Source: Bacteroidales bacterium | Lineage (GTDB): Bacteria > Bacteroidota > Bacteroidia > Bacteroidales > VadinHA17 | Length of the DNA: 32,121 bases | Direction: 5' to 3' | Assembly (NCBI GenBank): GCA_023251395.1 | Contig: JAHEYW010000003.1 | Span: 14,527-46,647 of the forward strand | Part shown: positions 4,555-31,952 of the stretch, piece after piece | How the letters are laid out: each line of letters starts with the position of its first letter | Position numbering within the stretch: the first letter of the stretch is position 1 | Program-made: the position numbers and the translations under genes | Notes under the pieces: model-generated | What the model saw: the letters and a program-made list of their open reading frames with translations, nothing else | Told to the model about the DNA's origin: nothing | The model's database searches: none

Positions 4555-5499
4555 TCAATTCCTGAATGTAAGGGAAACCCCTATTTCGAAAGGATACAGG
4601 TCATATCCTCCGGGGCCCATACCCGATTTGAAAAGTGGTGTCATATAATAGGTTCCATAAAGGTGCAGGTTTTCATATCCAATACGTGCAGTGGCTCCAT
4701 ACCTCAGCATATTCAGGCTGAAGTCACTGTAATTTTTAACATCTGGTCCGTTTTCAAAAACCATTCTTGAGTGTGAACTCAATTTTACTGCACCAATTGC
4801 TCCTGCAGCAACATGGATCCTGTTATGATTTGCCGGTATCTGTACCTCAAATAATATTGGCAGGGTAAGATAAATAGTTGCAAGCTTTGATTTTTTAAGT
4901 GTACCCAGGGGAGAGAGAGAATCAATAGTTCCATCATCTAGCTTTTGTATATTGAAATTCCCATCGAACCTGTAATTATTGAAGTTAAGCCCGAGTCCGG
5001 TCACAAACCCTGCATGCCTTGCAATTCCTATGCTTAACTGAGAGAAGTTCAGGTTAAAATTTACAGATTTCGCGGAATGCATGCTCATATAATTGATATC
5101 AGCAGGCATTGTAAGGCTGTTGCTGGCTGTCACTATGTTGTTAAATCCCAGCTCCAATCCAGCCCAGTGACCCGTAAAACGCTGCCTTCTTTCTGCCTTT
5201 TGTTCATCTTTGTCATCTTCATTTCCTTCATTCTTTTTGAGGGAAAAGTTATCGAAAGAAACTTTGTGACCACCTTCAAGTGATTCCAGAATATTAATGC
5301 CCCGGTCCCCGGCTCTTACTTTCAGGGCCTCTTTGCTGTTCTCGATTTTTAACAGGTCGTCCCCGATTATGACTTTTGTATTGTCATTTGTATCTGATGC
5401 AACAGTTGTTTGATTATTGTTTGTCTCCTTCACCTGTCCAAGTGCGGAAAGATTAAACACTATCATTAACATCAGTAGAATTGTTCCAGTCTTTTTCAT
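4555..5499 (-). CDS. Outer membrane beta-barrel protein with signal peptide
   Basis: Signal peptide MKKTGTILLMLMIVFNLSALGQ; alternating beta-strands GHWAGLELGFNNIV...YPFEIGVSLTFRN; C-terminal strand ends in an aromatic-containing pattern. Confidence 0.75.
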   Translation of the reverse strand: MKKTGTILLMLMIVFNLSALGQVKETNNNQTTVASDTNDNTKVIIGDDLLKIENSKEALKVRAGDRGINILESLEGGHKVSFDNFSLKKNEGNEDDKDEQKAERRQRFTGHWAGLELGFNNIVTASNSLTMPADINYMSMHSAKSVNFNLNFSQLSIGIARHAGFVTGLGLNFNNYRFDGNFNIQKLDDGTIDSLSPLGTLKKSKLATIYLTLPILFEVQIPANHNRIHVAAGAIGAVKLSSHSRMVFENGPDVKNYSDFSLNMLRYGATARIGYENLHLYGTYYMTPLFKSGMGPGGYDLYPFEIGVSLTFRN

Positions 5500-5549
5500 G
5501 TGTCAAGAATTATTTATTTAATGCTGGGACGGCAATGATAACAGAAAAG

Positions 5550-6644
5550 TTACAGGGAGGCCATAACTTTTTTCACAGGAGTATTGAACTTTATTATTCT
5601 GGAGCTGAAATAAAGGGATTTAAGCTCCCCCTGTTCGTTCCGGTTTTGCTTTAGTGACATATCCCAGCCAAGCAACTTGTTTAATCCTAATATTCCTGTC
5701 TCTGCTACCTCATAACCTTTCAGGTTCCCTGTTTCGGGTGTTTTTGATTTCAGGATCTTTTCCCTCACAAACAGTGCAAAGTACCCGCTGACACCAGGTT
5801 TCTCAAAAGTTACAGGGATTTGTTTCAGAGATATAGACGCCAATTTCAGTCCGGAAGAGATATCTGCAACCGGGATATTGACTTCATGAATAAATTCTGC
5901 TCTGGTCAGCTTCACCCGGTTCATGTCAGGCTGAATTACGACCGAATCGGTAATAGCAGGGAGAAAGATAGTGTCTGACTTTTTTGCGGTGATTTCCTGG
6001 TCCAGAGGATTTTTAATATCTGTTTTTGGACCCAGGTTATTTATGGCTATTTCCTTTCTTATAACTGGTTCTTCTTTTTTAATCCGGACAGGTGTTTCAA
6101 ATTTGCCGGATGAAGAGTTTCGGGCAATCGTTACAGACTGATCATCATTATTAATACCAGAAGTATTAAAGAGGAACATTAAAACAGCGATGCCGGCAGC
6201 AGCACTTCCCACAGCCAGAGAGAGTCTTATGACTTTTTGCTGAAGAGTAAAATGCTTCAGGGAAGCTTTTCGGGGAAATCTGATTGCAGGCGGGACAAGA
6301 CGGATCTTTTCTATTAATTCCAGGTCTCTCTTTTTATCGGGATAAGCGGAAATGATTTCCGCCAGCTCCTCTTTCTGTTCAGAAGTTATATCTCCTTCGG
6401 AAGAAGCGACACAGAGAAGCTCAAACTGCGGGTCTGGAATTTCAGTAACTCTTTTCTTAAGGAGGTTTTTCCCGGAATAGGATATATCTGATGTTAAGAC
6501 AGTATTTTGAAGTTCAGTGAATTCATCCTTCAGATCAGGGTTTTGTTCAAGGAAAATGAAAAGCTCCCTGACATTGTCCTGGTCAAGCTTTCCATCAAGA
6601 TAATCGATGATCCACATTTCGTAATTTGTCCTGTTCGGCTTCAT
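5550..6644 (-). CDS. Single-TM anti-sigma-factor-like protein
   Basis: Directly follows the ECF sigma gene (stop/start separated by about 1 nt); N-terminus YEMWIIDYLDGKLDQDNVRELFIFLEQNPDLKDEF resembles Bacteroidetes anti-sigma N-termini; central TM LSLAVGSAAAGIAVLMFLF. Confidence 0.6.
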   Translation of the reverse strand: MKPNRTNYEMWIIDYLDGKLDQDNVRELFIFLEQNPDLKDEFTELQNTVLTSDISYSGKNLLKKRVTEIPDPQFELLCVASSEGDITSEQKEELAEIISAYPDKKRDLELIEKIRLVPPAIRFPRKASLKHFTLQQKVIRLSLAVGSAAAGIAVLMFLFNTSGINNDDQSVTIARNSSSGKFETPVRIKKEEPVIRKEIAINNLGPKTDIKNPLDQEITAKKSDTIFLPAITDSVVIQPDMNRVKLTRAEFIHEVNIPVADISSGLKLASISLKQIPVTFEKPGVSGYFALFVREKILKSKTPETGNLKGYEVAETGILGLNKLLGWDMSLKQNRNEQGELKSLYFSSRIIKFNTPVKKVMASL

Positions 6645-6645
6645 A

Positions 6646-7131
6646 TCAGATCACTGTCTCGACTTTTCCTATATAGTTCTTTAAGGCCAGTCGGCCCCGG
6701 TAAATATTGATTTTAACCTGTGCTTCGGTCTGTCCGGTCATATCTCCAATTTCTTTATAGCTATAACCCTCATAATCACGCAGAAGGACAGATGTTCGCT
6801 GCTGTTCGGGCAGCCTGGATACAGCTTCATGCAGGATCTCATTGAGATCACTGGAAGGATTTTCATATGTGAAGTCCCTGTCTGGCAGTACATCTACATG
6901 TGTTATTCTCTTTTCCTTCCTGATTATATCGATCATGTTGTTATAAGCGGCGGTGAACAGCCATGATTTAACAACTGCATACTCAATTTCTGTAACATGT
7001 CTCCAGAGTTTCTCAAAAGAATCCTGTACAATGTCTCTTGCACGCGATTCATCCTTCAGGTCCGAACGGATAAACCTGTAAACTGCATCTGCAAACTCAT
7101 CGACAGATCTGTTGTATTCTTTTACTGTCAT
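6646..7131 (-). CDS. RNA polymerase sigma factor, ECF subfamily
   Basis: Region 2 (RDIVQDSFEKLWRH..VVKSWLFTAAYNNMIDIIRKEKR) and region 4 (RLPEQQRTSVLLRDYEGYSYKEIGDMTGQTEAQVKINIYRGRLALKNYI). Confidence 0.92.
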   Translation of the reverse strand: MTVKEYNRSVDEFADAVYRFIRSDLKDESRARDIVQDSFEKLWRHVTEIEYAVVKSWLFTAAYNNMIDIIRKEKRITHVDVLPDRDFTYENPSSDLNEILHEAVSRLPEQQRTSVLLRDYEGYSYKEIGDMTGQTEAQVKINIYRGRLALKNYIGKVETVI

Positions 7132-7408: not shown

Positions 7409-8824
7409 TTAGCTCTTAACCTGATACACCCTAACCCAGTCAATCTCCATTGTGGAAGATCCGGAAATTGGTTTGTCGAGGCCGCCGGCCAGGTTAATAT
7501 ACATAGGTTCCTGAGGAACATTTTCAGTCTGCTGAAACGCAACAACGCCATTAACCTTCCAGATGAGAGAACTTGCTGTCCATTCAAGTGTAAAGATGTA
7601 ATGATCGTTAGCATACCTTGACCCTATGGAAGATTTTGCGGAGTTGCTTACAGAGGAAAATAAGTCGAACCATACTTTTCCTTTGGACGTCCTGCAAATA
7701 TCGATATGTGGTGTGATCTTGTCAGCCAGGAGCCAGAATGCGCTTTTTGCACCAGGGTCACCGAGTTTTATTTTTGCGGAGAAGACTCCGTATTTCTGTC
7801 TGAAACTGATGCTGGAGTTAATAATGCCGGATGTATAGTCAAAATCTTTCTGGTTGAATCCATGAGCAGCTGACCATACTTTACCTTTGATTTTCTGAGC
7901 TTTGGTAACAATTTTAAGATTGCTTCCTCCGAGCTGGAAATTATCTTTTTCTGTATAGAAGTGAAGATCGGATTCAACAGAGTATCTGTCATGAAGAAGC
8001 TTCTCTCCCCAGTAGTAGTTGGTGAGCCATTTTTTTGTATCAAGCTTGTCTGAATCAAATTCCTCACTGAATAAAAGCTCACGGTGCTTCAGAATATCGA
8101 ATTTATTTGAATCCTTAACCTTGAAATACCAGATTATGTCAGGATCTTTTTTAAGCTTTCCGAATTCCTCAAGATCCTTGAACATGTCGGTCTTTTCAAA
8201 TCTTTTCTTGTCGAGGAGATATGCTTTTTTCTCTGCAAATTCTTTTGATTCAGTGTAGGTTTTAAGCTCTGCAAGTTTATCGAGCTTCTTTGATCCGGCA
8301 ACACTTTTATAGTTTGCAAGCTCCCTGGAGGCTTTGAATTTGTAATAATCTTTAATCTCCTGACTGCCTTTCAGCTGTTTATATTCATCGATCTTTTTAA
8401 AATCTTCACTTTCCTTAAATTCTTTTGTCTTGCTTTTTTCCCTGAAATCTGAAGACTGGACAAGTTTTTCAAGCGCCTCAAATTTGCTGATCTTCTCAGA
8501 CCCGTCAAGGGCATTGAATTTCTTCAGTGCTTCGCCTTCGAACGTCTTGAAATAAAGGACAATATCCTTTGACTTTTTCAGGGAAATATATTCTTTTTCC
8601 TTAGCATATTCGTCAGAGCTTTTATACTGAAGACCTTCAATGTCTTTCTTCTTCTGAATAAAATCGGAAGAACTGACCTTCGTATTCAGTTCATTGTATC
8701 TCTTTAACTGATCAGAATCCGAAAAAGCCTGCAGCTTTTCATACTCTGCAACAAGAGCTTTTTCTTCCTGCTCAATTTTAGAAGTAGCGGGGATCATTCC
8801 CAGTAAAAACTTGAGACTTGCCAT
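7409..8824 (-). CDS. GH16-fold (laminarinase/concanavalin-like) protein with three N-terminal ~72-aa repeats; predicted non-catalytic
   Basis: C-terminal half shows GH16 hallmarks (ELLFSEEFDSDKLDTKKWLTNYYWG; FSAKIKLGDPGAKSAFWLL; HYIFTLEWTASSLIWKVNG; MYINLAGG; MEIDWVRVYQ). Track ORF starts at 8896; the ATG at 8824 (MASLKFLLGMIPATSK) is a plausible alternative start. Confidence 0.8.
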   Translation of the reverse strand: MASLKFLLGMIPATSKIEQEEKALVAEYEKLQAFSDSDQLKRYNELNTKVSSSDFIQKKKDIEGLQYKSSDEYAKEKEYISLKKSKDIVLYFKTFEGEALKKFNALDGSEKISKFEALEKLVQSSDFREKSKTKEFKESEDFKKIDEYKQLKGSQEIKDYYKFKASRELANYKSVAGSKKLDKLAELKTYTESKEFAEKKAYLLDKKRFEKTDMFKDLEEFGKLKKDPDIIWYFKVKDSNKFDILKHRELLFSEEFDSDKLDTKKWLTNYYWGEKLLHDRYSVESDLHFYTEKDNFQLGGSNLKIVTKAQKIKGKVWSAAHGFNQKDFDYTSGIINSSISFRQKYGVFSAKIKLGDPGAKSAFWLLADKITPHIDICRTSKGKVWFDLFSSVSNSAKSSIGSRYANDHYIFTLEWTASSLIWKVNGVVAFQQTENVPQEPMYINLAGGLDKPISGSSTMEIDWVRVYQVKS

Positions 8825-8973
8825 CGTAGAATTGTTTTTAATACAACCTGTTAAAGATAGAAAATCTTTTAAGAATAAATCATCTACCACTATCAAATAT
8901 TTGTTTTTTACCGGATAGATGATAATTATAAAACGAAAAATGAATAACTTTATTTGTTGTCAGTTAGTAAATT

Positions 8974-9726
8974 ATGAAAAGCTGGTTAATTACAGGAGTA
9001 TTACTTCTGGTTTCAAGATGGGTTCCTGCCCAGCAGTTGTCTGCCACAGAAATTATTAAGAAAGCAGACGACAGATTCAATGGTGAAAGCTCAGGTATAA
9101 GCACTATGGAAATGACCGTAATCCGTCCCACATGGCAACGGAAAGTGGAATTTAAAAGCTGGTCTCAGGGACGCGAGAATTCGCTTACTCTGATAACTGC
9201 CCCTGCGCGTGATCAAGGGCAGACCTTTCTCAAAAGAGAGCAGGAGATGTGGACCTGGAACCCGGCAATAAACAGACTTATTAAGCTTCCTCCTTCAATG
9301 ATGTCTCAGGGATGGATGGGTTCCGATTATACAAACGATGACATTCTCAAAGAATCATCTGTTGTAAAGGACTATACGCATGAAATTGTGGAAGAAGAAA
9401 CGATCAATGGCAGTTTATGCAATAAGATTAAAATGACTGCAAAACCGGAAGCAAAGGTGGTATGGGGTCACCAGATCTGGTGGGTTGACAAAAAGGATTT
9501 CAATATACTGAAAGCCGAGCTGTATGATGAGGATGGGGCTCTGGTCAGAACAGAGCTGGGCTCTGAGATTAAACTAATGGATGGTCGTTCTATTCCGACC
9601 CGACTTGAGCTGATCCCGGCTGAAGAAAAGGGTAACAAAACAGTTGTGATAATAAAGGAAATCAGGTTTAATGTTCCTGTTGAAGACAGCTTCTTTTCCC
9701 AGCAAAATATGAAAAGGGTGCGATGA
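8974..9726 (+). CDS. Outer membrane lipoprotein-sorting protein, LolA-like
   Basis: Signal peptide MKSWLITGVLLLVSRWVPAQQ; ATEIIKKADDRFNGESS..MEMTVIRPTWQRKVEFKSWSQGRENSLTLITAPARDQGQTFLKREQEMWTWNPAINRLIKLPPSMMSQGWMGSDYTNDD, typical of the LolA-like sorting family. Confidence 0.85.
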   Translation: MKSWLITGVLLLVSRWVPAQQLSATEIIKKADDRFNGESSGISTMEMTVIRPTWQRKVEFKSWSQGRENSLTLITAPARDQGQTFLKREQEMWTWNPAINRLIKLPPSMMSQGWMGSDYTNDDILKESSVVKDYTHEIVEEETINGSLCNKIKMTAKPEAKVVWGHQIWWVDKKDFNILKAELYDEDGALVRTELGSEIKLMDGRSIPTRLELIPAEEKGNKTVVIIKEIRFNVPVEDSFFSQQNMKRVR

Positions 9727-11144
9727 AAGAGGATCTCAAAATTGCCTGGCGGAATTTGTGGAGAAGCAAAAGAAGAACTCTCATTACATCTTCATCAGTC
9801 TTCTTTGCCGTCTTCTTTGCCGTTGTAATGAGATCATACCAGCTCGGCAGCTATGACAGGATGATTCAGAATTTCATCGAATCATATTCAGGTTATCTTC
9901 AGATCCAGCATAAGGAATTTCAGGACAATCCTTCTTTGGATTATTCGTTTGATTACAGCGATTCTCTTTTTGAAAAGATATTTTCAGTGAAAAACGTTGT
10001 TTCGGCTGCTCCGCATATCGAATCTTTTGCTCTTGCCTCCAGCGGAAACCAGACAAAAGGGGTTATTGTTCTTGCTGTTGATACTGAAAAGGAAAAGAAG
10101 TTTTCTAATCCTGAAAGCAAGCTTGTAAAATATAAAATCACACAAAGGCTTATTAATAAACTCAAGATATCAGGCCAATTCCATGAGTCTGTTCTGAAAA
10201 AGTTAAACCAGGTCTCCGGGAATTCCTATTCTTCGACATCAAGACTAGACCTTGACCTGGATCTTTCGGAAGATGAAAGAAACTCTTATATGTCTGTGAT
10301 ACTTGAAGAAAGCAAAGCGACCAACAGATATCTTTCAAACCCTGATTCCGGTGTCATGGTTTCTGATAAGCTTGCTACATATCTCAAAGTGAATGTCGGT
10401 GATACGGTAATACTTATGGGGCAGGGTTATCATGGGGCCTCAGCCGCGGGGCTGTTTCCTGTCAGGGGGATTATTAAAATGCCTTCTCCTGACATTGATA
10501 ATAAACTTATTATTATGACTATCCCGACTGCCCAGAGGTTCTTTCAGACTGAAGGGAAAATTACCTCTCTGGCAATCAACCTGACCGGAAGGTCTGCCGG
10601 AGTTTTAAAAAGGTCAAGGGAAAATATTTCACAACTTCTTTCCGATAAATCGACCCTGGTAAAGACATGGGAAGATCTTAACCCTGTTCTTGTTCAGCAG
10701 ATACAGGGAGATAGTCAGACCGGCATGGCAACACTGGCCATGCTTTATTTCATCATTTTCTTCGGGATATTCGGCACTGTACTTATGATGATGGCTGAGA
10801 GGAAAAGGGAATTTGGCGTTATGATCTCAATCGGAATGCAGAAAAAAAGACTGAAAAGAATTATTGTCACAGAAATGATAATGATGGGCTTAATTGGTCT
10901 TATTGCAGGACTTTTGGCAAGCGCCCCGTTCATACTTTATTTCTATTACAATCCGATATTGCTAAGGGGTGAACTTGGCAAAATGATGGAGGATTACGGA
11001 TGGGATGCAGTAATGCCAACAGCCTGGTTTGGTCCATATTTCTACTGGCAGGCTGTAATAGTATTTATTATGATTCTGGTTGCTACACTTTATCCGATAA
11101 GGAAGATTTCAAAATTAAAGGAAATTGAGGCTTTACGGAGCTGA
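9723..11144 (+). CDS. ABC transporter permease (MacB/FtsX/LolC-type)
   Basis: IAWRNLWRSKRRTLITSSSVFFAVFFAVVM N-terminal TM; three C-terminal TMs with MMMAERKREFGVMISIGMQKKRLKRIIVTEMIMMGLIGLIAG. Starts with ATGA overlap to the previous gene. Confidence 0.9.
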   Translation: MKEDLKIAWRNLWRSKRRTLITSSSVFFAVFFAVVMRSYQLGSYDRMIQNFIESYSGYLQIQHKEFQDNPSLDYSFDYSDSLFEKIFSVKNVVSAAPHIESFALASSGNQTKGVIVLAVDTEKEKKFSNPESKLVKYKITQRLINKLKISGQFHESVLKKLNQVSGNSYSSTSRLDLDLDLSEDERNSYMSVILEESKATNRYLSNPDSGVMVSDKLATYLKVNVGDTVILMGQGYHGASAAGLFPVRGIIKMPSPDIDNKLIIMTIPTAQRFFQTEGKITSLAINLTGRSAGVLKRSRENISQLLSDKSTLVKTWEDLNPVLVQQIQGDSQTGMATLAMLYFIIFFGIFGTVLMMMAERKREFGVMISIGMQKKRLKRIIVTEMIMMGLIGLIAGLLASAPFILYFYYNPILLRGELGKMMEDYGWDAVMPTAWFGPYFYWQAVIVFIMILVATLYPIRKISKLKEIEALRS

Positions 11145-11157
11145 AAAACTACCGGGT

Positions 11158-12582
11158 ATGACTATATCAATCGCTTGGAAGAACGTGTGGCGGAACAGGA
11201 ACAGAAGCCTGACTGTCATTATCGCTGTTGCTCTGGGCATCATCTCAGGCGTGATGCTGATAGCGATCATGGAGGGCTGGATTGAACAACGGCTGCATGA
11301 TGCAATCTATAATGAGGCATCACATATTCAAATACATAATTCCGATTATCTGAAGAATGAGGAGATACAGCTTACTGTCGATAAAGCTCCGGAAATAATT
11401 TCAGAAGCCGGAAAGATCAATGAAATATCCGGATGGGTCATCAGGTCAAAAGTTGTCGCGATGGCAAACACCTCCTGGGCAAACACAGGGGTTTTCATTT
11501 ATGGTATTGATCCGGAAAAAGAAAAGGATGTAACAGAGATATATAAAAGAATTGTCCGGGGGGGAGGTAAGTATCTGGAAAAGAACGCACCAGGAACCAT
11601 TCTGATAAGCGATAAAACAGCCGAACTACTAAAACTTAAGCAGTACTGTCTCAGAGATGAGGTGCTCAGTAAATTAAAAGAGGTTAATATCCCGGAGAAG
11701 GTAACTATCGCATTAAAAGACATTTATGGTATTAGATTCAGATCCCCAAAGGACTTCAGTAATGCCCTGAAGGAAAAGCTCACTCGTCGACAGCTCGATG
11801 ATTATGGCAAGACAATTATGGACAGTTCGCTCGATTACAGGATCAGGAATAAAATTCAGGTTACCTTATCAGATCTGAATGGCAATCCTGTTCAGGGGAC
11901 CTTCAGGGTTTGCGGGATCTATAAGACCACAAATACAGGATTTGATCAGCAGACAGTCTATATAAATTCTGATGACCTGTTGGAACTATACGGGGGAACT
12001 TCACAACTTATTCATGAGTTTGCATTTCTTCTTTCGGATGTAAAGAAATGTGAAGAAGTGAAGGAAAAGCTGGAGCTTATTTCTGGCAAAAATAAAGTCA
12101 GCACCTGGAAAGAACTTGCTCCTGATGCAGCAATGATGAATGATTTCATGATAATGTATTATGTCATCTTCGTCGGAATAATTATGCTTGCCCTGGCATT
12201 CGGGATAATTAATACAATGATGATGGCAATTCTTGAAAGGACGAAAGAACTTGGAATGCTGATGGCAATCGGGATGAACAGAAAGCGGATTTTCAATATG
12301 ATAATGCTTGAAACAGTATTTCTGACACTGGTTGGTGCAATCGCAGGGATATTTGCGGGCTGGCTTCTTGTGGCCGTTCTGGGCAGAAACGGGATCTATT
12401 TCTCTTCATGGGGAGAAGGTTTTGAGGCAATAGGATTTGCTGCAAGAGTATATCCTGTAATCTCCCCTTCATACTTTGCATTAATAATTGTAATGGTTAT
12501 TATAACTGCAATAATTTCCTCTGTCTGGCCTGCCCGTAAAGCGCTTAATCTTGCTCCGGTTGAGGCAATAAGAACAGAATAA
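11158..12582 (+). CDS. ABC transporter permease (MacB/FtsX/LolC-type), second paralogue
   Basis: MTISIAWKNVWRNRNRSLTVIIAVALGIISGVMLIAIMEGW ... MMMAILERTKELGMLMAIGMNRKRIFNMIMLETVFLTLVGAIAG. Likely start 11158 rather than 11125. Confidence 0.9.
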   Translation: MTISIAWKNVWRNRNRSLTVIIAVALGIISGVMLIAIMEGWIEQRLHDAIYNEASHIQIHNSDYLKNEEIQLTVDKAPEIISEAGKINEISGWVIRSKVVAMANTSWANTGVFIYGIDPEKEKDVTEIYKRIVRGGGKYLEKNAPGTILISDKTAELLKLKQYCLRDEVLSKLKEVNIPEKVTIALKDIYGIRFRSPKDFSNALKEKLTRRQLDDYGKTIMDSSLDYRIRNKIQVTLSDLNGNPVQGTFRVCGIYKTTNTGFDQQTVYINSDDLLELYGGTSQLIHEFAFLLSDVKKCEEVKEKLELISGKNKVSTWKELAPDAAMMNDFMIMYYVIFVGIIMLALAFGIINTMMMAILERTKELGMLMAIGMNRKRIFNMIMLETVFLTLVGAIAGIFAGWLLVAVLGRNGIYFSSWGEGFEAIGFAARVYPVISPSYFALIIVMVIITAIISSVWPARKALNLAPVEAIRTE

Positions 12583-12604
12583 TTCAGCTTAAAAAAGACC
12601 CAAT

Positions 12605-13291
12605 ATGAAGGTAATAGATATAAAAGAAGTTCACAAAGTATACGATGAAGAAGAAATTGCTGTAAAAGCAGTTGACGGAGTGACATTATCTTTTGATGAG
12701 GCAGAATTTGTGGCAATTGTCGGACCATCCGGCTCTGGTAAAACAACCTTGCTTAACCTGATTGGCGGCCTCGACATGCCAACAGAAGGGGAGATTGTTA
12801 TTGCAGGTACCAACCTCTCGACACTAAAACCCTCTGGGCTCATAGATTTCCGGCTGAATAATATAGGCTTTGTGTTTCAGGCATATAACCTGGTTCCTGT
12901 TCTTACTGCAAAAGAGAACGTGGAATTCATTATGTCGTTGCAGAAATGGTCAAAGCACGACAGGGAGTTAAGATCTGATGAATTACTGAAAGCTGTCGGG
13001 CTTCTTGAAAGGAAGAACAGCAGACCCGGGAAGCTATCGGGAGGCCAGCAGCAGAGAGTTGCGGTTGCCAGGGCACTGGCGTCAAGACCGAAGTTCGTTC
13101 TTGCTGATGAACCAACAGCGAACCTCGATTCAAAATCCGCTGCGACCCTCCTGGAGATTATGGAAAAGCTGAACCATGGAGAAAAGATCACATTTATCTT
13201 TTCAACCCACGATCCGCGTGTCGTCAAAATGGCTCACAGGGTTATTACACTTGAAGATGGCAAAGTCGTTTCGGATGATGTCAGGGAGTAG
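12605..13291 (+). CDS. ABC transporter ATP-binding protein (LolD/MacB type)
   Basis: Walker A GPSGSGKTTL, signature LSGGQQQRVAVARAL, Walker B FVLADEPTANLD, H-loop STHD. Confidence 0.95.
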   Translation: MKVIDIKEVHKVYDEEEIAVKAVDGVTLSFDEAEFVAIVGPSGSGKTTLLNLIGGLDMPTEGEIVIAGTNLSTLKPSGLIDFRLNNIGFVFQAYNLVPVLTAKENVEFIMSLQKWSKHDRELRSDELLKAVGLLERKNSRPGKLSGGQQQRVAVARALASRPKFVLADEPTANLDSKSAATLLEIMEKLNHGEKITFIFSTHDPRVVKMAHRVITLEDGKVVSDDVRE

Positions 13292-13310
13292 CCATCAATT
13301 CTTCAATCTG

Positions 13311-14459
13311 ATGAAAAAGATTCTGCTTATTTATATTCTTTCTTTTATTTTCCAGATACAATTATTGCCTCAGGACCCAGGTAAGATCACACTTAACGGT
13401 TATATTACCAGTATGCAAAGTGTGATGTTCGACTCGCTAAAAGGGAATTATATCAACCAGAACATGATCCATAACAGATTGAATTTCAAGGCATATTTTA
13501 ACGACAACATTACTTTTGGACTGGAGATACGCAACAGGCTGTTCATGGGTGATATGGTAAAAACCAACCCATGGTTTGCAACAAGCACGGGATTTGATCC
13601 CGGAGTTGCAGATCTTTCATGGAATCTGATAAATGAAAGATCAGTTCTTCTGAACACATCAATTGACAGGTGCTGGCTGGATTTGAATTATGGAAAAGTA
13701 CAGGTGAAGTTAGGCCGGCAGAGGATAAACTGGGGACAAACGCTCGTGTGGAATCCTAATGACATTTTCAATGCCTATTCTGTATTTGACTTTGATTATG
13801 TTGAACGGCCCGGAAGTGATGCGATAAGGATTCAATATTATCCGGGTACAGAATCGACCGCCGAGGTGGCAATTAAATCAGACAGAGATAATAAAATCAC
13901 CGCAGCCGGGTTGTACAGGTTTAACAGGAAGAGCTATGATATTCAGTTTTTTGCGGGATATTTTCAAGGTGAGGATATTGTTGCAGGGACAGGCTGGTCT
14001 GGTTCTTTCGGGGGAATATCTTTCAGGGGAGAGGCAACCTGGTTCCAACCCGCCAGCCATTTTTCAGATACAACCGGGAGAGGGATATTCACAACAGGTT
14101 TTGATAAGGTCTTAAAGGACAATTCTTCAGTGCAGTTACAGATAATGTACTGTAATGATCCGTTAAAACTCACAAATTTTGATTCTCTCTATAAAGGCGA
14201 TCTATCATCCAAAGATCTTGCTTTTTCGAAGTTTTCAGCATACGGGCAATATTCATATCAGGCAATACCCTTGCTGAACATAGGTGTTTCCGGGATGTGG
14301 CTTCCTGATCTGAATGGTTTTTTTGCCGGGGCCTCAGTGGAATATTCAGTAGCTGAAAATCTGGATGTTTCGTTTATCTGGCAGCACTTCAATACTGAGG
14401 TGAAAGCTTCCAGAAGCAGTATTAATATGTGCTTCCTGAGAATGAAATGGAACTTCTAA
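13311..14459 (+). CDS. Outer membrane beta-barrel protein (porin-like)
   Basis: Signal peptide MKKILLIYILSFIFQIQLLPQ; barrel-like strands, GKVQVKLGRQRINWGQTLVWNPNDIFNAYSVFDFD; C-terminal strand ...NMCFLRMKWNF. Track start 13176 overlaps the ATPase; ATG 13311 is more plausible. Confidence 0.8.
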   Translation: MKKILLIYILSFIFQIQLLPQDPGKITLNGYITSMQSVMFDSLKGNYINQNMIHNRLNFKAYFNDNITFGLEIRNRLFMGDMVKTNPWFATSTGFDPGVADLSWNLINERSVLLNTSIDRCWLDLNYGKVQVKLGRQRINWGQTLVWNPNDIFNAYSVFDFDYVERPGSDAIRIQYYPGTESTAEVAIKSDRDNKITAAGLYRFNRKSYDIQFFAGYFQGEDIVAGTGWSGSFGGISFRGEATWFQPASHFSDTTGRGIFTTGFDKVLKDNSSVQLQIMYCNDPLKLTNFDSLYKGDLSSKDLAFSKFSAYGQYSYQAIPLLNIGVSGMWLPDLNGFFAGASVEYSVAENLDVSFIWQHFNTEVKASRSSINMCFLRMKWNF

Positions 14460-15812: not shown

Positions 15813-16574
15813 CTAAAAATTCAGCTCTTCCTTCAGATGCTTATATCCTGCCCTGCTTACCGGAAGCTTGTCGCCGGAATGAAGGACCGCAACATAATTA
15901 TCCTTTGTATAAGGTTCAAGCCGGTTAATTTCTTCAATTTTAACAATATATGACCTGTGTATCCTGACAAAGCTTTCCTTTGGCAGATTGGCATCATAAA
16001 ATTTCATGGTCTGCTGCTTTAGGGCCTTCCCGGTGGTGTGATATATCATAACATAGTCATCCTGGGCTTCAACATACTTTATCTGTTTGACAGGAATAAT
16101 ATTGATTGAGTTCCCTTTTCTGACCACGATCCTGTTTATGGGCCCCTGAGGTTCGGGAAGCTGCAGTGTTTTCCCCTCCTTTTCTTCAGATCTTGTTTTT
16201 TCCATCGAGAGTCTTGAAACAGCCTTTTTCAAAGCTTCGCCAAATCTTTCCTTATGAAATGGTTTAAGCAGGTAATCGACAGCATTAAGTTCAAAAGCAC
16301 GGATAGCATACTGGTCAAATGCCGTTGTGAAAATGATCTGTGGTTTTTCATCCAGCACTTCCAGTAGTTCGAAACCTGTTAGTTTTGGCATCTGGACATC
16401 AAGGAAGACCAGGTCCGGTTTAATTTCAGATATTGATTTAAGTCCGGAAAATCCATCCTGACACTCTCCGGCAAGTTCAATATTATCGTAATCTTTGAGA
16501 TAATGTTTTATGATCTCCCTTGCAGGAGCCTCATCTTCAATTATTAATGCTTTAATTTTCATCAGATAATTCAC
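15813..16574 (-). CDS. Response regulator, LytTR family
   Basis: Receiver domain (KALIIEDEAPAREII..PDLVFLDVQMPKLTGFELLE..TTAFDQYAIRAFELNAVDYLLKPF) and LytTR domain (IVVRKGNSINIIPVKQIKYVEAQDDYVMIY..SFVRIHRSYIVKIEEI). Internal ATG at 16562 is an alternative start. Confidence 0.94.
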   Translation of the reverse strand: MNYLMKIKALIIEDEAPAREIIKHYLKDYDNIELAGECQDGFSGLKSISEIKPDLVFLDVQMPKLTGFELLEVLDEKPQIIFTTAFDQYAIRAFELNAVDYLLKPFHKERFGEALKKAVSRLSMEKTRSEEKEGKTLQLPEPQGPINRIVVRKGNSINIIPVKQIKYVEAQDDYVMIYHTTGKALKQQTMKFYDANLPKESFVRIHRSYIVKIEEINRLEPYTKDNYVAVLHSGDKLPVSRAGYKHLKEELNF

Positions 16575-17626
16575 TTTATATTTATTGGGATAGAGATATT
16601 GACAGTGAAAATATTGTTCTCTTTTTGAGTATTTATCAGCCCTCTTTTACCGTAAACAAGCTCTATTCTCCTTGCCACATTAATCAATCCCGTACCGGTA
16701 CCTTTATTTGGTATTGATTCGGGGTCAAAATTGTTACTGACTGAAATATTGAGATATCCGTTCAGTATTTCAGCATTGGTGATAATCTTTACCGTTTCAA
16801 GACTTTCATATACCCCATGTTTTATTGCATTTTCGTAGATCGGCTGAAGCAACATAACGGGCAGCATCACGTCATAACAATCATCCCGGATCGTAGCTTC
16901 GGAGACCAGTTTATTTCCGAACCTGACCTTTTCAATATCAAGATAGAGCCCGAGGTTCTCAAGCTCGCTTCTTAGGGTAACCGGTTGTTCGTCTTTACGT
17001 GAGAGTGCATAACGGAGAAATTCTGACAATTTTATAACCATTATCCTTGCCTTATCAGGGTCAGTTATTGTAAGAGAACTGATCGAATTCAGACTGTTGA
17101 AAAGAAAATGAGGATTTATCTGGGATCTCAGCATTTTAAGTTCAGTTTCTTTAACAACTGTTTCCAGTTTTGATTCTCTGGCTTTTTTTTCTGCAAGATC
17201 ATTAAGGCTGATAAAAAGGTAGTATGAAAGTATTGCCATGCCGAAAATAAATACACCGGTACCTATTCTGTAGGGCAATGTTGCATCCCAGTATAAAGGG
17301 AATGACTGGTCTTTCGGAAACAGGTTCGATGTCAGGTAGTAGGTGAGAAGGACCCATAAGGTAATGGAAATAGCAGCTGTAACAAGAAGGTTAAAGATCT
17401 GAACGGCGGGATTTGTTCCGGTGCGGTTAAAGTATCTGAAAGGATACCATAGCATAAGGGCAATCCCCGAATAAATGCAGACAGAAATGATTCCTTCAGG
17501 AATTGTTATAAAAGTGTAACTGCCGTAAGCATAGTAATAAATGAGTGACTGGCCCAGACCCAGCAGGATCCAGACCAGCCACCATAGAAATAGACTTGAT
17601 CCTTTTTCAAGAATCGGATGTTTCAT
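16571..17626 (-). CDS. Sensor histidine kinase, LytS/YehU type
   Basis: LKMLRSQINPHFLFNSLNSISSLTITDPDKAR motif; PVMLLQPIYENAIKHGVYES; GTGTGLINVARRIELVYG; N-terminal TM helices. Confidence 0.93.
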   Translation of the reverse strand: MKHPILEKGSSLFLWWLVWILLGLGQSLIYYYAYGSYTFITIPEGIISVCIYSGIALMLWYPFRYFNRTGTNPAVQIFNLLVTAAISITLWVLLTYYLTSNLFPKDQSFPLYWDATLPYRIGTGVFIFGMAILSYYLFISLNDLAEKKARESKLETVVKETELKMLRSQINPHFLFNSLNSISSLTITDPDKARIMVIKLSEFLRYALSRKDEQPVTLRSELENLGLYLDIEKVRFGNKLVSEATIRDDCYDVMLPVMLLQPIYENAIKHGVYESLETVKIITNAEILNGYLNISVSNNFDPESIPNKGTGTGLINVARRIELVYGKRGLINTQKENNIFTVNISIPINIK

Positions 17627-18390
17627 TATTTATAGCTTTTTATTTCACCGCCACCAAATACAACGGCTCCTTTTATCACCAGCTGTTTTGTCGTGTCAAC
17701 CGGTCTGCCCGGATTGATTTTTCTTGAATCGCTGAATCCACCTAATACAGGAACTACTTCAACAGTAACGTACCAGTCGTCAGGTACAATTAATGTAACA
17801 CCACCGAACACACATGCCAGTTCAATTTCAGATCTCCCGGGTGCAAGCTTAGCCTGTGTCAGATCTATTTCGCTTCCCCCGAAAATTGAGGTTGCTTTTC
17901 CTCCTCTGAAGTTCTGGGAAACGATCTGCCTCTCACCGCCGCTGAATACATGTACATAATCGATATAATCATCCCCAACAACCGGGGCGTTTGATTCAGG
18001 ATTCCACCCTCGTCTCCTTGAGAAGATAAATATTATACCCACTATAATGAAAATTGACGGCCAGAACAGGTTATAAAGGTGAAAGGTCTCCCTGAAGATC
18101 TGAGGTATAAGAAAGAATGCACCAACGGCCATTACGACAATACCCGATGTTTTTCCACCGGATGAACCAACAGTAATTATTAGTCCGATCGTCACCAGAA
18201 GCATTGGCCAGCTGAATATGATATTATCGAGATAGGAAGGCAGAAAATCGGTGTTTCTGATAACCAGGAAAAGTCCAACAATGACGAGAATAACGCCTAT
18301 GATCGCCCTGTTGCCGGAGAGATGATGATGTTGATGATACTCTCTCCTCCAATCATGCTGATCACCCCTGTAGTTTTCATTTGTTTCCAT
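17626..18390 (-). CDS. LiaF-like membrane protein (LiaF transmembrane + cell-wall-active antibiotics response C-terminal domain)
   Basis: TM helices, then VHVFSGGERQIVSQNFRGGKATSIFGGSEIDLTQAKLAPGRSEIELACVFGGVTLIVPDDWYVTVEVVPVLGGF. Confidence 0.85.
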   Translation of the reverse strand: METNENYRGDQHDWRREYHQHHHLSGNRAIIGVILVIVGLFLVIRNTDFLPSYLDNIIFSWPMLLVTIGLIITVGSSGGKTSGIVVMAVGAFFLIPQIFRETFHLYNLFWPSIFIIVGIIFIFSRRRGWNPESNAPVVGDDYIDYVHVFSGGERQIVSQNFRGGKATSIFGGSEIDLTQAKLAPGRSEIELACVFGGVTLIVPDDWYVTVEVVPVLGGFSDSRKINPGRPVDTTKQLVIKGAVVFGGGEIKSYK

Positions 18391-18414
18391 AGTTGTAAAT
18401 TTATTTGTTTCAAT

Positions 18415-18900
18415 TTAATTAATATACTTTTTTCTGCAGAACAGCGAGGAGATAATGTAAGATAATCCAATCAGGATAATTACTCCGGGCCAATAGATAG
18501 TTTTAATAAACGGAGGGATAATGTAATAGACTTCATCGATGAAGAACCATGATCCTGCAGCAATCATTAATATACCGCCGGTAAAATGTCTGTTGACCAG
18601 TAGAATGACTCCGACAAAGATCATTGCAGTCTGCCAGGTAAAATAGCGTGAAATGCTCCCAAGATTAAGCATATCGTTTGTTGCAACCAGTAATGCCAGC
18701 CCCAGAATAATCAGAAAAAGACCGATACTTACCATTGGATGATGATGATGCCTTCCAAAATTCCCGTATTTTTCTCTCATTTCTCTTTTTCGGGTTCTTC
18801 TTTCATTTCTTTTTGCCCAGTATTCTTCTGCGTCTTTCATTTCTTTGTAATTTTGATACCTGATGCAAATGTATTTATCAGGGTTACTTTTGGACATCAA
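18415..18900 (-). CDS. LiaF-like transmembrane (DUF5668-type) protein
   Basis: HHHHPMVSIGLFLIILGLALLVATNDMLNLGSISRYFTWQTAMIFVGVILLVNRHFTGGILMIAAGSWFFIDEVYYI; four short TM segments. Confidence 0.75.
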   Translation of the reverse strand: MMSKSNPDKYICIRYQNYKEMKDAEEYWAKRNERRTRKREMREKYGNFGRHHHHPMVSIGLFLIILGLALLVATNDMLNLGSISRYFTWQTAMIFVGVILLVNRHFTGGILMIAAGSWFFIDEVYYIIPPFIKTIYWPGVIILIGLSYIISSLFCRKKYIN

Positions 18901-22926: not shown

Positions 22927-23991
22927 TTGAAAACGAAATATAAAATAATTGTTACTGCTCTTCTTCTGATCTTCTCAGCAACAGTTACTGCTTTTTCCCA
23001 GGAAGAAAAATCTGGAGCTCCCGAAAAGAAGGAATTCAATGCCAGCGAATTTATTCTTGAACATGTGACTGATTCGCATGAATGGCATATTCTCACACTT
23101 AAAGATGGGGAAAACATTGCTCTTTACCTTCCGGTGATATTATATACTAAAGAAAAAGGATTCTCCCTTTTCTCATCAAAAAGAATCGCTGAAGGCAGGA
23201 TTTATAATGGTTTTAAGCTTGAAGAAGAAGGAGATCTGAAAGGAAAGATCGTTTGTGTGAATGAAAATAACGAAGCTGATGAGAAAAATCTGCCATTCGA
23301 TTTTTCAATCACCAAGACTGTCTTTGCTATGATGTGTGCAGCCCTTTTAGGACTCATTATTTTTATTTCCATGGCAAGATCTTACAAAAAGACCGGGGTG
23401 AGCGCCCCAAAGGGTATTCAGAGCTTGCTTGAACCTGTGATCCTTTTTGTTCGTGATGATATTGCTATTCCAAATATTGGTCATCATAAATATGAAAAAT
23501 ACATGCCCTATCTTCTTACAGCATTTTTCTTTATCCTGATGAACAATCTAATGGGTCTGATCCCGTTCCCGCCACCCTTTGGCGGAAACGTAACAGGTAA
23601 TATTAATGTGACCTTTGTACTGGCCTTTTGTACATTCCTCATAACCCAGTTCAGCGGGAACAAAAATTACTGGAGGCACATATTTGCAACCCCGGGAGTT
23701 CCTGTCTGGCTCCTGCCGGTAATGATACCTGTCGAACTCATGGGAATCGTTTCAAAACCTTTCGCCCTGATGATCCGTTTGTTTGCGAATATTACAGCAG
23801 GTCATATCATCGTGCTAAGCCTTGTCTGCCTGATCTTTGTTTTTCAGTCTGTAGCTGTGGCACCCGTTTCAATAATATTTGTGATTTTCATGGACTGCCT
23901 CGAACTTCTGGTGGCATTCCTTCAGGCATATGTTTTCACCCTGCTTTCAGCGCTGTTTATCAGCCTGGCGGTACAGGAGGAGCATCATTAG
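22927..23991 (+). CDS. atpB: F0F1 ATP synthase subunit a
   Basis: PVMIPVELMGIVSKPFALMIRLFANITAGHIIVLSLV; N-terminal signal-like sequence and about 120-aa extension. Confidence 0.96.
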   Translation: MKTKYKIIVTALLLIFSATVTAFSQEEKSGAPEKKEFNASEFILEHVTDSHEWHILTLKDGENIALYLPVILYTKEKGFSLFSSKRIAEGRIYNGFKLEEEGDLKGKIVCVNENNEADEKNLPFDFSITKTVFAMMCAALLGLIIFISMARSYKKTGVSAPKGIQSLLEPVILFVRDDIAIPNIGHHKYEKYMPYLLTAFFFILMNNLMGLIPFPPPFGGNVTGNINVTFVLAFCTFLITQFSGNKNYWRHIFATPGVPVWLLPVMIPVELMGIVSKPFALMIRLFANITAGHIIVLSLVCLIFVFQSVAVAPVSIIFVIFMDCLELLVAFLQAYVFTLLSALFISLAVQEEHH

Positions 23992-24006
23992 TTTTTTAAC
24001 GTTTAA

Positions 24007-24231
<225 letters not shown>

Positions 24232-24294
24232 AGGAACTGAAGGCTGCAACGGTTGGTTGCAGCTCTTCATTTTAACAGATCAAAAACAATAAAT

Positions 24295-24807
24295 ATGATA
24301 TTAGCTAATAGTCTGGCAACTCCCGCAATAGGTACAATTTTCTGGACCGTACTTATCTTTGGCCTCTTCTTTCTCCTTCTGGCCAAATTTGCCTGGAAGC
24401 CGATACTTAGTGCCGTAAAAGCAAGGGAAGAAATTATCAAGGGTTCTCTCGAAGCTGCTGAAAGAGCAAGAGAGGATATGAAAAAGCTTCAGACAGACAA
24501 TGAAGCTATTCTCCGTAAAGCGCGTGAAGAGAGAGAGAACATACTCAAAGATGCAAGAGAAATCCGTGACAAAATGATCAATGAGGCGAAGGAGAAAGCA
24601 TCAGAGGAAGGAGAAAGACTCATTGAAAAGGCTCGTCTGGGAATTGAAAATGAGAAAGAGAAAGCTCTTTCCGAAATTCATCAGCAGGTCGCATATCTTT
24701 CAGTGGAGATTGCATCAATGCTGCTTGGGGAGAAACTGAAGGAAAGCGATGAACAGAACAAGCTGATTGACCATTACCTGAAAGATATTGACCTGAATAA
24801 AAACTAG
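24295..24807 (+). CDS. atpF: F0F1 ATP synthase subunit b
   Basis: MILANSLATPAIGTIFWTVLIFGLFFLLLAKFAWKPILSAVKAREEIIKGSLEAAERAREDM. Internal ATG 24295 preferred to 24253. Confidence 0.95.
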   Translation: MILANSLATPAIGTIFWTVLIFGLFFLLLAKFAWKPILSAVKAREEIIKGSLEAAERAREDMKKLQTDNEAILRKAREERENILKDAREIRDKMINEAKEKASEEGERLIEKARLGIENEKEKALSEIHQQVAYLSVEIASMLLGEKLKESDEQNKLIDHYLKDIDLNKN

Positions 24808-24820
24808 GTATAAATCCGAA

Positions 24821-25372
24821 ATGAACGACAGCAAGATATCAGTCAGATATTCACGGGCTTTATTTCAGCTTGCAGTTGAGAAGAAGATGCTCGACAAAGT
24901 CAATACTGATATGATCTTTATTTCTGAGATCTGCAGGATTAAGGAAGTAAAGGAAGTGCTCGACAGCCCTATAATTGTACCATCAAAGAAAAAATCAATT
25001 TTAGCTGCTGTACTTAAAGATAATGTTGAGAAAATGACCCTTTCTCTTATTGAACTGCTTGTCAAAAATGGAAGGGAAGGCCACCTTCCTGCTGTTGCAA
25101 GGGTCTTTGTCGATGAAACAAGAAAATACAACGGCGTAACTGAAACTTCACTTATTACTGCAATTCCCGTCAATGACAAGGTAAGAAAGCAGATGACTGA
25201 CCTGATTTCATCGGCATTTAAAACCAAAGTAGAGCTTAAAGAGACTGTAGACAAGGATATCATCGGCGGTTTCATTCTAAAAGTGAATGACAATTTCATT
25301 GACGCCAGTGTAAGGAATAAACTCAGGAAGATCAAAAAGGAACTTTCTTACAATCCTTCCATAAAAGAATAA
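24821..25372 (+). CDS. atpH: F0F1 ATP synthase subunit delta
   Basis: SVRYSRALFQLAVEKKMLDKVNTDM...ELKETVDKDIIGGFILKVNDNFIDASVRNKLRKIKKEL. Confidence 0.95.
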   Translation: MNDSKISVRYSRALFQLAVEKKMLDKVNTDMIFISEICRIKEVKEVLDSPIIVPSKKKSILAAVLKDNVEKMTLSLIELLVKNGREGHLPAVARVFVDETRKYNGVTETSLITAIPVNDKVRKQMTDLISSAFKTKVELKETVDKDIIGGFILKVNDNFIDASVRNKLRKIKKELSYNPSIKE

Positions 25373-25401
25373 GGAATTTAGCGAATATTAAGTAAATATA
25401 T

Positions 25402-26982
25402 ATGGCAAATATCAAACCAGCAGAAGTATCAAAGATCCTCAAACAACAGCTTGAAGGTGTTCAGACTGGCGTGGAATTGGAAGAAGTCGGTACAGTCCTT
25501 CAGGTGGGAGACGGAATTGCACGTATCTACGGGCTGTCAAATGTACAGTCGAACGAACTCATCGAGTTTGAAAATGGTATCGAAGCAATTGTGCTCAACC
25601 TTGAGGAAGATAATATTGGTGCTGTTCTCCTTGGCCCGACAGAAGAAATAAGCGAAGGAGACATTGTTAAGAGAACAGGCAGAATTGCTTCAATAATGGT
25701 TGGAGAAGGGCTGCTTGGCAGAGTTATTGCACCTACTGGTCAGCCTCTTGATGGTAAAGGGCCGATCACCGGCGAACTTTTTGAGATGCCGTTTGAAAGA
25801 AAAGCTCCCGGTGTTATTTATCGCCAGCCGGTGAAACAACCTGTTCAGACCGGAATAAAAGCCATCGATGCAATGATCCCGATCGGCAGGGGACAGCGTG
25901 AGCTTATTATCGGAGACCGCCAGACAGGAAAGACAGCTATTGCTATTGATACAATTATAAATCAGCGTAGCAATTACGAAAAAGGGAAACCGGTATATTG
26001 TATCTATGTGGCCATTGGCCAGAAAGGTTCAACTGTTGCAAATATTGCAGCCACCCTTGAAACACATGGTGCCCTGAAATATACAACAATAGTTCTTGCA
26101 ACAGCATCAGACCCGGCTGCCTCACAGTTCTATGCCCCGTTTGCCGGTGCTGCAATAGGTGAGTTCTTCCGCGATACTGGCCGCGACGCGCTGATAATAT
26201 ATGACGACCTTTCCAAACAGGCTGTTTCATACAGGGAAGTTTCCCTCCTGCTTCGCCGTCCACCAGGACGTGAAGCATATCCGGGTGACGTATTCTATCT
26301 TCACTCACGCCTGCTGGAAAGAGCAGCCAAGATCATTGAATCTGATGACGTTGCAAAACAGATGAACGACCTTCCTGAATCAATAAGACACATGGTTAAA
26401 GGTGGTGGTTCACTCACAGCTCTTCCAATTATTGAAACACAGGCAGGTGACGTATCAGCGTATATTCCAACAAACGTGATCTCAATAACCGATGGTCAGA
26501 TATTCCTTGAATCAGGCTTGTTCAATGCAGGCGTTCGTCCTGCGATCAACGTTGGTATTTCTGTATCAAGGGTAGGAGGAAATGCACAGATAAAGGCGAT
26601 GAAGAAAATTGCCGGTACCCTGAAGGTTGACCAGGCTCAGTATCGGGAACTGGAAGCATTTTCAAAATTTGGTTCTGACCTCGATGCAACTACACTTGGC
26701 ATCCTTGACAAAGGAGCAAAGAACGTTGAGATACTTAAACAAAAACAGTATTCTCCGGTCCCGGTTGAAAAACAGATTGCAATAATCTACTGTGGTACAA
26801 AAGGGTTGCTGAGAGACGTTCCGATTCATAAGGTTAAGAGTTTTGAAGCAGATTTCATTGAGTTTCTGGAGCTGAAACATAAAAATGTCCTTGACTTACT
26901 TAGGGAAGGTACGCTTAACAACGAGATAACAGATACACTGGAAAAAGTAGCGGCAGAAATTGCTGCAAGATACAGGTATTAA
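25402..26982 (+). CDS. atpA: F0F1 ATP synthase subunit alpha
   Basis: [63 protein letters not shown]. Confidence 0.98.
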
Positions 26983-27013
26983 TTACCGGAATTACTGAAC
27001 AAAAAGCTGGTTA

Positions 27014-27898
27014 ATGGCTAATTTAAAGATAATAAGGACCAGGATAGCGTCTGTAAAATCCACAAGGCAGATTACCTCGGCAATGAAGATGGTTTCTGCA
27101 GCCAAATTACGCAAGGCTCAGGACAAGATCGTCAGGCTGAGACCATATGCCAACAAGCTGCATGAGATACTTGTGGGTGTTTCACAAAGCCTTGTTGATG
27201 TTGAGGAAGATAATATCTATGGAAAAAAGAGAGATCCCGAAAAGGTCCTGATCATTATGATCACTTCGAACAGGGGACTCTGCGGAGGCTTTAATTCGAA
27301 TGTGGTCAAAGAAACGCGAAGAATAGTTGCGGATAAGTATCATAAACAGGCTTCCAAAGGCAATCTATGGTTTATGGCTATCGGGAAGAAAGGATTCGAA
27401 TTCCTTCGCCAGCAAAAGCTTAATATTCTTGAAGAACATAACCAGGTTTTCAATAATCTCACTTTTTCAAATGTATCCGTAATTGCAGAAAAAGTGATGG
27501 AAAATTTTGTTTCAGGTAAATTTGACAGGGTAGATATTGTCTATAACCAGTTCAAAAATGCTGCGGTACAGAATCTGACAAATGAACCATTCCTTCCTGT
27601 TGAAACAGCTCCGGCTGATCAGAAAACTGTGACGGTGGCAGATTACATTTATGAACCCACAAAAGAGGAAATTGTTAAGGAGCTTATTCCCAAATCCATA
27701 AAAATTCAGTTCTATAAAGCAGTTCTTGATTCGTGGGTAGCTGAACACGGAGCAAGGATGACGGCAATGCACAAGGCGACAGACAATGCTACCCAAATGA
27801 TCAAAGAACTCACACTGCAATATAACAAGGCACGGCAGGCCTCAATTACCAACCAGATCCTTGAAGTTGTCAGTGGTGCTGAGGCTCTTAAAGGATAG
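27014..27898 (+). CDS. atpG: F0F1 ATP synthase subunit gamma
   Basis: MANLKIIRTRIASVKSTRQITSAMKMVSAAKLRKAQ; SNRGLCGGFNSN; C-terminal QASITNQILEVVSGAEAL. Confidence 0.97.
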   Translation: MANLKIIRTRIASVKSTRQITSAMKMVSAAKLRKAQDKIVRLRPYANKLHEILVGVSQSLVDVEEDNIYGKKRDPEKVLIIMITSNRGLCGGFNSNVVKETRRIVADKYHKQASKGNLWFMAIGKKGFEFLRQQKLNILEEHNQVFNNLTFSNVSVIAEKVMENFVSGKFDRVDIVYNQFKNAAVQNLTNEPFLPVETAPADQKTVTVADYIYEPTKEEIVKELIPKSIKIQFYKAVLDSWVAEHGARMTAMHKATDNATQMIKELTLQYNKARQASITNQILEVVSGAEALKG

Positions 27899-27937
27899 CA
27901 GACCGATATAGTCTTTATTCTGAAAAATACCCTCTTT

Positions 27938-28912
27938 ATGTATACTAAACCTGAACTAAAGGAATTGATAGAGAAGGCGTTGGTCAATCTTTCAATTGAT
28001 GATGAGGCTGAGAGACTTACAGCACCAATAAGATATTTCCTTTCAATTGGAGGTAAACGCCTGCGCCCGGTGATCACCCTCTTATCCTGCAATATTTTTT
28101 CCGATAAGGTTGATGGTGCCATTCTTCCTGCATTAGGAGTAGAGGTATTTCATAACTTCACACTTGTACACGATGACATTATGGACAATGCCTCCCTTAG
28201 AAGAAACCTTCCGACAGTTCATACCAAATGGGGAAATAACCAGGCAATTCTTTCCGGAGATGTCATGGCATTTATAGCCAATGACTGTTTCCTTCAGACT
28301 CCTTCCAATGTCCTTTCAAAGGTCTTCACCACATTTAACAGGGCGGCAGTGCAGGTCTGTATCGGACAGCAGCTTGATATGGATTTTGAAAAGAGCCAGG
28401 TGATTTCTCATGAAGAATACCTGCGCATGATTGAACTGAAAACAGCAGTTCTTCTTGCAGCTTCAGCCAAAATAGGCGGTATAATTGGAGGTGCCGGGGA
28501 AAAAGATTGTGATCACCTTTATGAATTCGGCAGGAACCTCGGACTTGCATTCCAGATCCAGGATGATCTTCTGGATGTATACGGGGATGTTAATGTTTTT
28601 GGTAAAATATCCGGAGGTGATATTGTCACAAATAAAAAAACCTTTCTGCTGGTAAAGGCTTTGGAAACAGCAGGCGGCAGCACATTGAAAAAGCTGCAGG
28701 AGACAATTGCTTTAAAGGAATTTGAACCTGCAGAAAAGATCAAAGCAGTTGTTGAGATCTATAACGAGCTGAAAATCAAGTCACATACAGAGATCCTTGC
28801 AGAAGATTATATTTCATCCGCAATAGAAAATCTGGAGAAGGTAAGTGCTGAAAAGGAAAGGAAAAAAGAGTTGCTTCAGGTTGCTACCTCTCTGAGTGGC
28901 AGGAGAAAATAA
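27938..28912 (+). CDS. Polyprenyl (isoprenyl diphosphate) synthase
   Basis: GGKRLRPVITLL; first Asp-rich motif LVHDDIMDNASLRRNLPTVH; second QIQDDLLDVYGD. Confidence 0.94.
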   Translation: MYTKPELKELIEKALVNLSIDDEAERLTAPIRYFLSIGGKRLRPVITLLSCNIFSDKVDGAILPALGVEVFHNFTLVHDDIMDNASLRRNLPTVHTKWGNNQAILSGDVMAFIANDCFLQTPSNVLSKVFTTFNRAAVQVCIGQQLDMDFEKSQVISHEEYLRMIELKTAVLLAASAKIGGIIGGAGEKDCDHLYEFGRNLGLAFQIQDDLLDVYGDVNVFGKISGGDIVTNKKTFLLVKALETAGGSTLKKLQETIALKEFEPAEKIKAVVEIYNELKIKSHTEILAEDYISSAIENLEKVSAEKERKKELLQVATSLSGRRK

Positions 28913-28916
28913 TTAT

Positions 28917-29120: not shown

Positions 29121-29269
29121 TTAATAAAATCCGTTCAGGACATTTCCACATGAAATTTAGAATATTTCTTTGTAAGAGTCAATATTCCAGGTTGATAGCT
29201 TATAAATCTTATCAGAAAACACACATAGCTTAATCGATGAAGAAGCACTCTACTTTCAAATATCAATTG

Positions 29270-29289: not shown

Positions 29290-29326
29290 TTAGAGGAACT
29301 CTGCTCTACCGGACATTAGTCCCTCA

Positions 29327-30437: not shown

Positions 30438-31952
<1,515 letters not shown>

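Follow-up and report, generated by a model that had tools for sequence, protein, structure and literature searches.

Tandem helical repeats joined to a GH16-fold domain without its catalytic glutamate pair in a Bacteroidales protein family

What might a protein do that carries the fold of a family 16 glycoside hydrolase (GH16), seemingly without the residues needed for cleavage, behind a series of repeats for which no described family is apparent? The question is raised by a 471-aa protein encoded on the minus strand at 7409..8824 of the window, i.e. the whole stretch of 32,121 nucleotides of Bacteroidales DNA that was analysed here. An earlier note on this DNA, made from the sequence alone, had singled out three tandem repeats that it took to be helical and to be fused to a dead GH16 fold. 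We report the follow-up of these claims across genomes of the order, class and phylum, and we weigh the possible roles of the protein.

The gene and its tandem repeats

The ORF finder called TTG 8896 as the start codon, but homologues favour ATG 8824 instead, with MASLKxLLGxxPsTxKIE kept as the N-terminus from the Met of 8824. A promoter-like element conserved in the genus, AAAGATTTTCTATCTTTA (8852..8869, minus strand), lies 27 nt 5' of this ATG and contains TATCTTTA, which is similar to the Bacteroidetes -7 box TAnnTTTG. TATCTTTA is found 25-28 nt 5' of the ATG in 40/41 genus loci, and the AAAGA half of the element in 37 of the 41. Given the position of TATCTTTA and the homologue starts at 8824, the 5' extension that begins at TTG 8896 is most likely promoter DNA. 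The element at 8852-8869 is also an inverted repeat, AAAGAT-N-ATCTTT, placed directly 5' of the gene. It occurs once in the window and in two copies in the source genome, the other being at G000:C111:9996-10014; outside the genus, upstream regions hold at most a TATCTTTA / TATATTTG-like half. With two genome copies and at most a half-element beyond the genus, the idea of AAAGAT-N-ATCTTT as a regulon marker was dropped, and we infer that the element acts as a promoter.

The protein begins with a segment (aa 1-36, 8717..8824, minus strand) combining an F/L-G-x-x-P-x-T-x-x-I/V-E motif with a long helix (aa 13-35), followed at aa 37-248 by three tandem units of 69-72 aa, N-terminal to the GH16-fold domain. 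The repeats that the earlier note had placed at 8081-8728 were thereby recovered at 8716-8081 of the minus strand: repeat A, the first or N-cap, covers aa 37-108 (8501..8716), repeat B, of the middle, number-variable class, aa 109-177 (8294..8500), and repeat C, the last or C-cap and the most conserved, aa 178-248 (8081..8293). They share 31-34% pairwise identity in the window protein. Their self-alignment is significant: Smith-Waterman scores of 95 (AB), 82 (AC) and 86 (BC), against shuffle means of 35-38, correspond to z values of 8.7, 7.0 and 7.2, and none of 2000 composition-preserving shuffles matched any of these scores. An HMM seeded with A, B and C converged on 166 copies in 47 homologues; within the genus, each copy scores roughly 40-95 bits. 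The consensus is S..L....EL.....S.EF...K.......FK.S.EY.K..EY..LKKS..IK.Y.K.K.S.

The helical character suspected in the earlier note is well supported by AlphaFold, which, with 24 related sequences as input for aa 1-248, predicted five short helices per repeat (mostly 9-13 residues) with a mean pLDDT of about 90, Ser being frequent at the short breaks between helices. In the model, helices span residues 38-50, 53-63, 71-83, 86-95 and 98-106 in repeat A, 110-122, 125-131, 140-152, 155-164 and 167-175 in repeat B, with an extra short one at 134-138, and 179-191, 194-204, 213-225, 228-236 and 240-247 in repeat C.

That note had recognised no named domain in the repeats, and our searches agree. 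Pfam returned nothing within the N-terminal 248 aa of the window protein, and when 30 diverse repeats were compared with Pfam (e.g. FF, DUF349) no family matched more than one member, the best chance match having an E-value of 0.027. The repeat corresponded to no known family in NCBIfam, PHROGs or PADLOC, its profile found nothing at E <= 1 among PDB sequences, and a Foldseek search with the predicted structure, which the note had suggested, gave no match at E <= 0.001 in the PDB or among viral models. The Babesia merozoite surface protein (2jo7/2lud) was considered as a relative and set aside, its E-values of 0.08-0.14 being deemed insignificant. The repeat thus appears to be without a described family in the libraries searched (Pfam, NCBIfam, PHROGs, PDB).

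Distribution, copy number and gene neighbourhood

The gene is present in a single copy in the source genome, and 53 of 80 relatives have it. Of 393 genomes sampled from the order, 95 (about a quarter) carry the repeat. A class sample of 395 genomes yielded a single carrier besides the source genome, itself a member of this order, and a phylum sample of 346 genomes yielded the source genome and one weak single-repeat match (E 8.6e-4). The family is hence confined to one order, Bacteroidales, other orders being essentially without the repeat. Carriers include uncultured Bacteroidales / Bacteroidetes metagenome assemblies from a fen, lakes (LacPavin, Loclat) and other environmental bins. In all complete orthologues read, the GH16-like domain is C-terminal, and the conservation of this architecture across many Bacteroidales indicates that it is real. 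It recurs with 1-9 repeat copies, in one order and not over Bacteroidota at large. Two other origins were rejected: a mobile module carried on other proteins, since the sole repeat ORF without a GH16 part is cut at a contig end, and a viral source, since no IMG/VR contig was matched by conserved peptide patterns. We found no paper on the repeat-GH16 architecture in the literature.

Because the number of repeats per orthologue spans 1 to 9, open frames range from about 350 to 900 aa. The variation is unevenly placed. First repeats find their best match among the first repeats of other proteins in 53/61 cases and last repeats among last repeats in 62/63, while 118 of 138 middle repeats match middle repeats best; in nine-repeat proteins certain middle copies share 90-92% identity within one protein, the mark of recent duplications. 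Mapped on a quick tree built from the GH16 part only, the repeat number requires at least 25 changes, 4 or more of which fall inside the genus; this is a minimum count, and weak middle repeats were possibly miscounted. As the repeats at both ends are orthologous by position and middle copies are gained and lost, the simplest reading would be a fixed pair of end caps enclosing an expandable middle.

The same observations bear on whether the repeats are merely an accidental likeness among Lys/Glu-rich helical sequence. The composition of aa 1-248 is indeed skewed (K 20.6%, E 11.7%), but composition-preserving shuffles always fell below the observed scores, the profile gave a single weak match outside the order in the class and phylum samples, and the end repeats show positional orthology; we regard this explanation as already refuted, with a negligible residual probability.

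The gene neighbourhood proved less informative. Three genes on the minus strand at 4555-7131 encode an ECF sigma factor, a protein of 364 aa that has no match in Pfam, and an OMP beta-barrel; they probably represent an ECF sigma / anti-sigma pair plus its target. This trio comes after the repeat-GH16 gene in the majority of genus loci whose reading extended far enough, a synteny that holds at genus level only. The commonest order-wide neighbour is methionyl-tRNA formyltransferase-like, in 12/72 loci, and nothing recurs more; ATP synthase beta and a histidine kinase are other neighbours outside the genus, all names coming from sequence reading save where Pfam was run. In the loci read, we recognised no PUL, SusC/D-like or CAZyme neighbourhood. 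As no neighbour recurs beyond this count, the neighbours indicate no pathway, and a function inferred from them was dropped.

Other groups of genes were seen in the window. On the plus strand at 22927-31952, a polyprenyl synthetase gene stands among ATP synthase genes (A chain, OSCP, alpha, gamma and a 502-aa subunit of alpha/beta type). The repeat-GH16 gene is found no more than a few kb from a beta-subunit gene in eight further loci of the order, which may reflect an old linkage. A divergent group at 8974-14459 (plus strand), comprising a LolA-like protein, two FtsX/MacB permeases, an ABC ATPase and a DUF1302-like protein, is similar to a lipoprotein or lipid export system. The minus strand at 15813-18900 encodes a LytTR response regulator, a His_kinase-type sensor and two LiaF-like membrane proteins in tandem, which make up an envelope stress system of the Lia-like type in a Gram-negative bacterium.

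A GH16-like domain under constraint

The C-terminal part of the protein (aa 249-471, 7412..8080, minus strand) is a GH16-like beta-jelly-roll domain. It matched PF00722 in Pfam with an E-value of 2e-8 (34.4 bits, for a cut-off of 22), the family profile reached E 4e-19 against PDB laminarinases (4crq), and the top PDB matches in a fold search were all GH16, with moderate TM-scores of 0.5-0.65. Its membership of the GH16 fold family is therefore firm by both sequence and fold. AlphaFold modelled the GH16 part with uneven confidence, pLDDT being 32-89 in blocks, and at these pLDDT and TM-score values the state of the cleft is not readable from the model.

GH16 catalysis requires two glutamates in an ExDxE or ExDxxE motif (PMC6827312). 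The corresponding strand of the window protein is a degenerate HIDICR (aa 373-378, 7691..7708, minus strand). Column counts over 96 homologues gave no sequence with both catalytic glutamates: the first position is occupied by H in 69, E in 14, Q in 11, M in 1 and V in 1, and the acid/base Glu is found at +4 in none and at +5 in one, where the first residue is His. Judged by its residues, the GH16 domain is catalytically dead, and the claim of the earlier note on this point stands, the catalytic pair missing in 96/96. Could cleavage persist through other residues, e.g. the His, Asp or Cys of HIDIC? The strand Asp is largely kept (D in 80/96, N in 12/96) and His is the prevailing first residue, but Glu or Gln replaces it in 25/96 and the Cys is not retained beyond the genus, where F, A, L, V or M is found instead. 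It is thus unlikely that the whole family shares one chemistry, and we consider catalysis by other residues highly improbable.

Loss of the catalytic pair did not come with relaxed constraint. In close pairs, dN/dS values lay at 0.05-0.12 in the GH16 domain and at 0.07-0.19 in the repeats, save for a single pair at 0.38; both halves are under purifying selection, strong on the GH16 domain, and the low values indicate that the dead domain is itself constrained. Residues invariant throughout the family (W..W-G, W....GF, N, and the Arg in SFRQKYG), none of them catalytic, point to what may be a retained surface or pocket. An active-looking distant GH16, L071, which has a signal peptide and the motif NEIDVFEQ, was found in a genome that also carries the family (G065).

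Location, proposed role and known systems

A secretion signal is usual among catalytic GH16 enzymes, and GH16 relatives are normally secreted. The N-termini of the present family bear a short basic-hydrophobic motif, with F/L-G-x-x-P-x-T kept across the order. By a crude measure, the best 12-residue hydrophobicity mean, they show no strong hydrophobic core: the family median is 1.43, whereas the secreted GH16 scores 3.26 and two exported window proteins score 2.04-2.57. Five homologues begin with MGIPAT(A/T)KIE or MGLFGxMQATS and have no long hydrophobic stretch, and no Sec or lipoprotein signal, transmembrane segment or added sorting domain was seen at either end. From such leaderless-looking N-termini and this crude measure, the proteins are probably cytoplasmic; that no signal peptide is clear speaks against carbohydrate-binding proteins secreted in the ordinary way.

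The protein is, on present sequence evidence, probably a binding or scaffold protein. We tentatively favour a non-catalytic, lectin-like pseudo-glycanase of the GH16 fold on a length-variable helical arm, a possibility that we put slightly below an even chance. The pseudo-glycanase module would cap the end of an arm of tandem 70-residue helical repeats in a protein that stays in the cytoplasm. Its cleft would hold a ligand without cutting it, most likely a glycan or a glycan-like polymer, and the number of middle repeats might set the reach or valency between the GH16 module and the contacts made by the N-terminal motif and the arm. In this reading the protein would be no enzyme but a lectin-like adaptor whose arm is adjustable.

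A rewritten catalytic strand, an apparently leaderless N-terminus and loci in which no PUL, SusC/D-like or CAZyme neighbours were recognised would suit a GH16 fold without any sugar binding, which as a structural or protein-protein domain would form an intracellular scaffold with the repeats. Purifying selection and the invariant Trp, Arg and Asn fit a ligand site, but they fit a protein interface as well, and we hold this scaffold to be somewhat unlikely. A Sec-independent route could instead take the protein out of the cytoplasm as a surface adhesin or glycan-binding protein, with the N-terminal basic-hydrophobic motif as an export or anchoring signal. Conservation of F/L-G-x-x-P-x-T across the order and the usual secretion of GH16 relatives, such as L071 with its signal peptide, speak for export; the protein ends, where no Sec or lipoprotein signal, sorting domain or transmembrane segment was seen, speak against it and make it quite unlikely.

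The lectin-like adaptor can be taken further, to an order-specific family of pseudo-glycanases that work inside the cell as readers of a glycan, or a polymer like it, in the cytoplasm and whose reach or valency is tuned by the copy number (1-9, with fixed caps) of a new repeat. In this full form the proposal is doubtful; if true, the repeat would be a new fold, and the GH16 fold would have a use in the cell that is new. The architecture occurs in about a quarter of the sampled genomes of the order, and no described function was found for it. Since the domain exceeds the Pfam cut-off, its automatic annotation as a family 16 glycoside hydrolase is likely, although 0/96 homologues have the residues for the family chemistry. 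With end caps and a variable middle, the repeat count offers a simple handle on whether arm length matters.

Among known systems, the repeats are all-alpha and elongated like SH3BP5 (6ixg) and the SMC and BAR-type coiled coils, rod-like proteins returned by the fold search, but the fold match is insignificant (best E 0.15, TM-score about 0.25). The best NCBIfam match of the GH16 part is NF052454 EglC, an endo-1,3-1,4-beta-glycanase (E 8e-12); with 44.8 bits for a cut-off of 700, and only the C-terminal GH16 part matched, the protein is not a member. Active GH16 laminarinases, lichenases and kappa-carrageenases (PF00722; 3azx, 4crq, 4dfs, 5ocq, 3i4i) share the homologous beta-jelly-roll, but the present family differs from them in lacking the glutamate pair and a clear signal peptide, and its N-terminal helical repeats match no solved structure. 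Non-catalytic GH16 binding proteins exist elsewhere, e.g. the insect glucan recognition proteins (PMC6827312, PMC6403176), and in its proposed way of working the window protein would resemble these. The window protein belongs neither to this GNBP family nor to the catalytic glycoside hydrolases. The insect GNBPs (GH16_4, non-catalytic) are enzyme-derived binding proteins that likewise have mutated catalytic residues and an added N-terminal region (PMC6827312, PMC6403176), whereas the present family is bacterial, belongs to one order and bears tandem helical repeats instead of the GNBP glucan-binding N-terminal domain.
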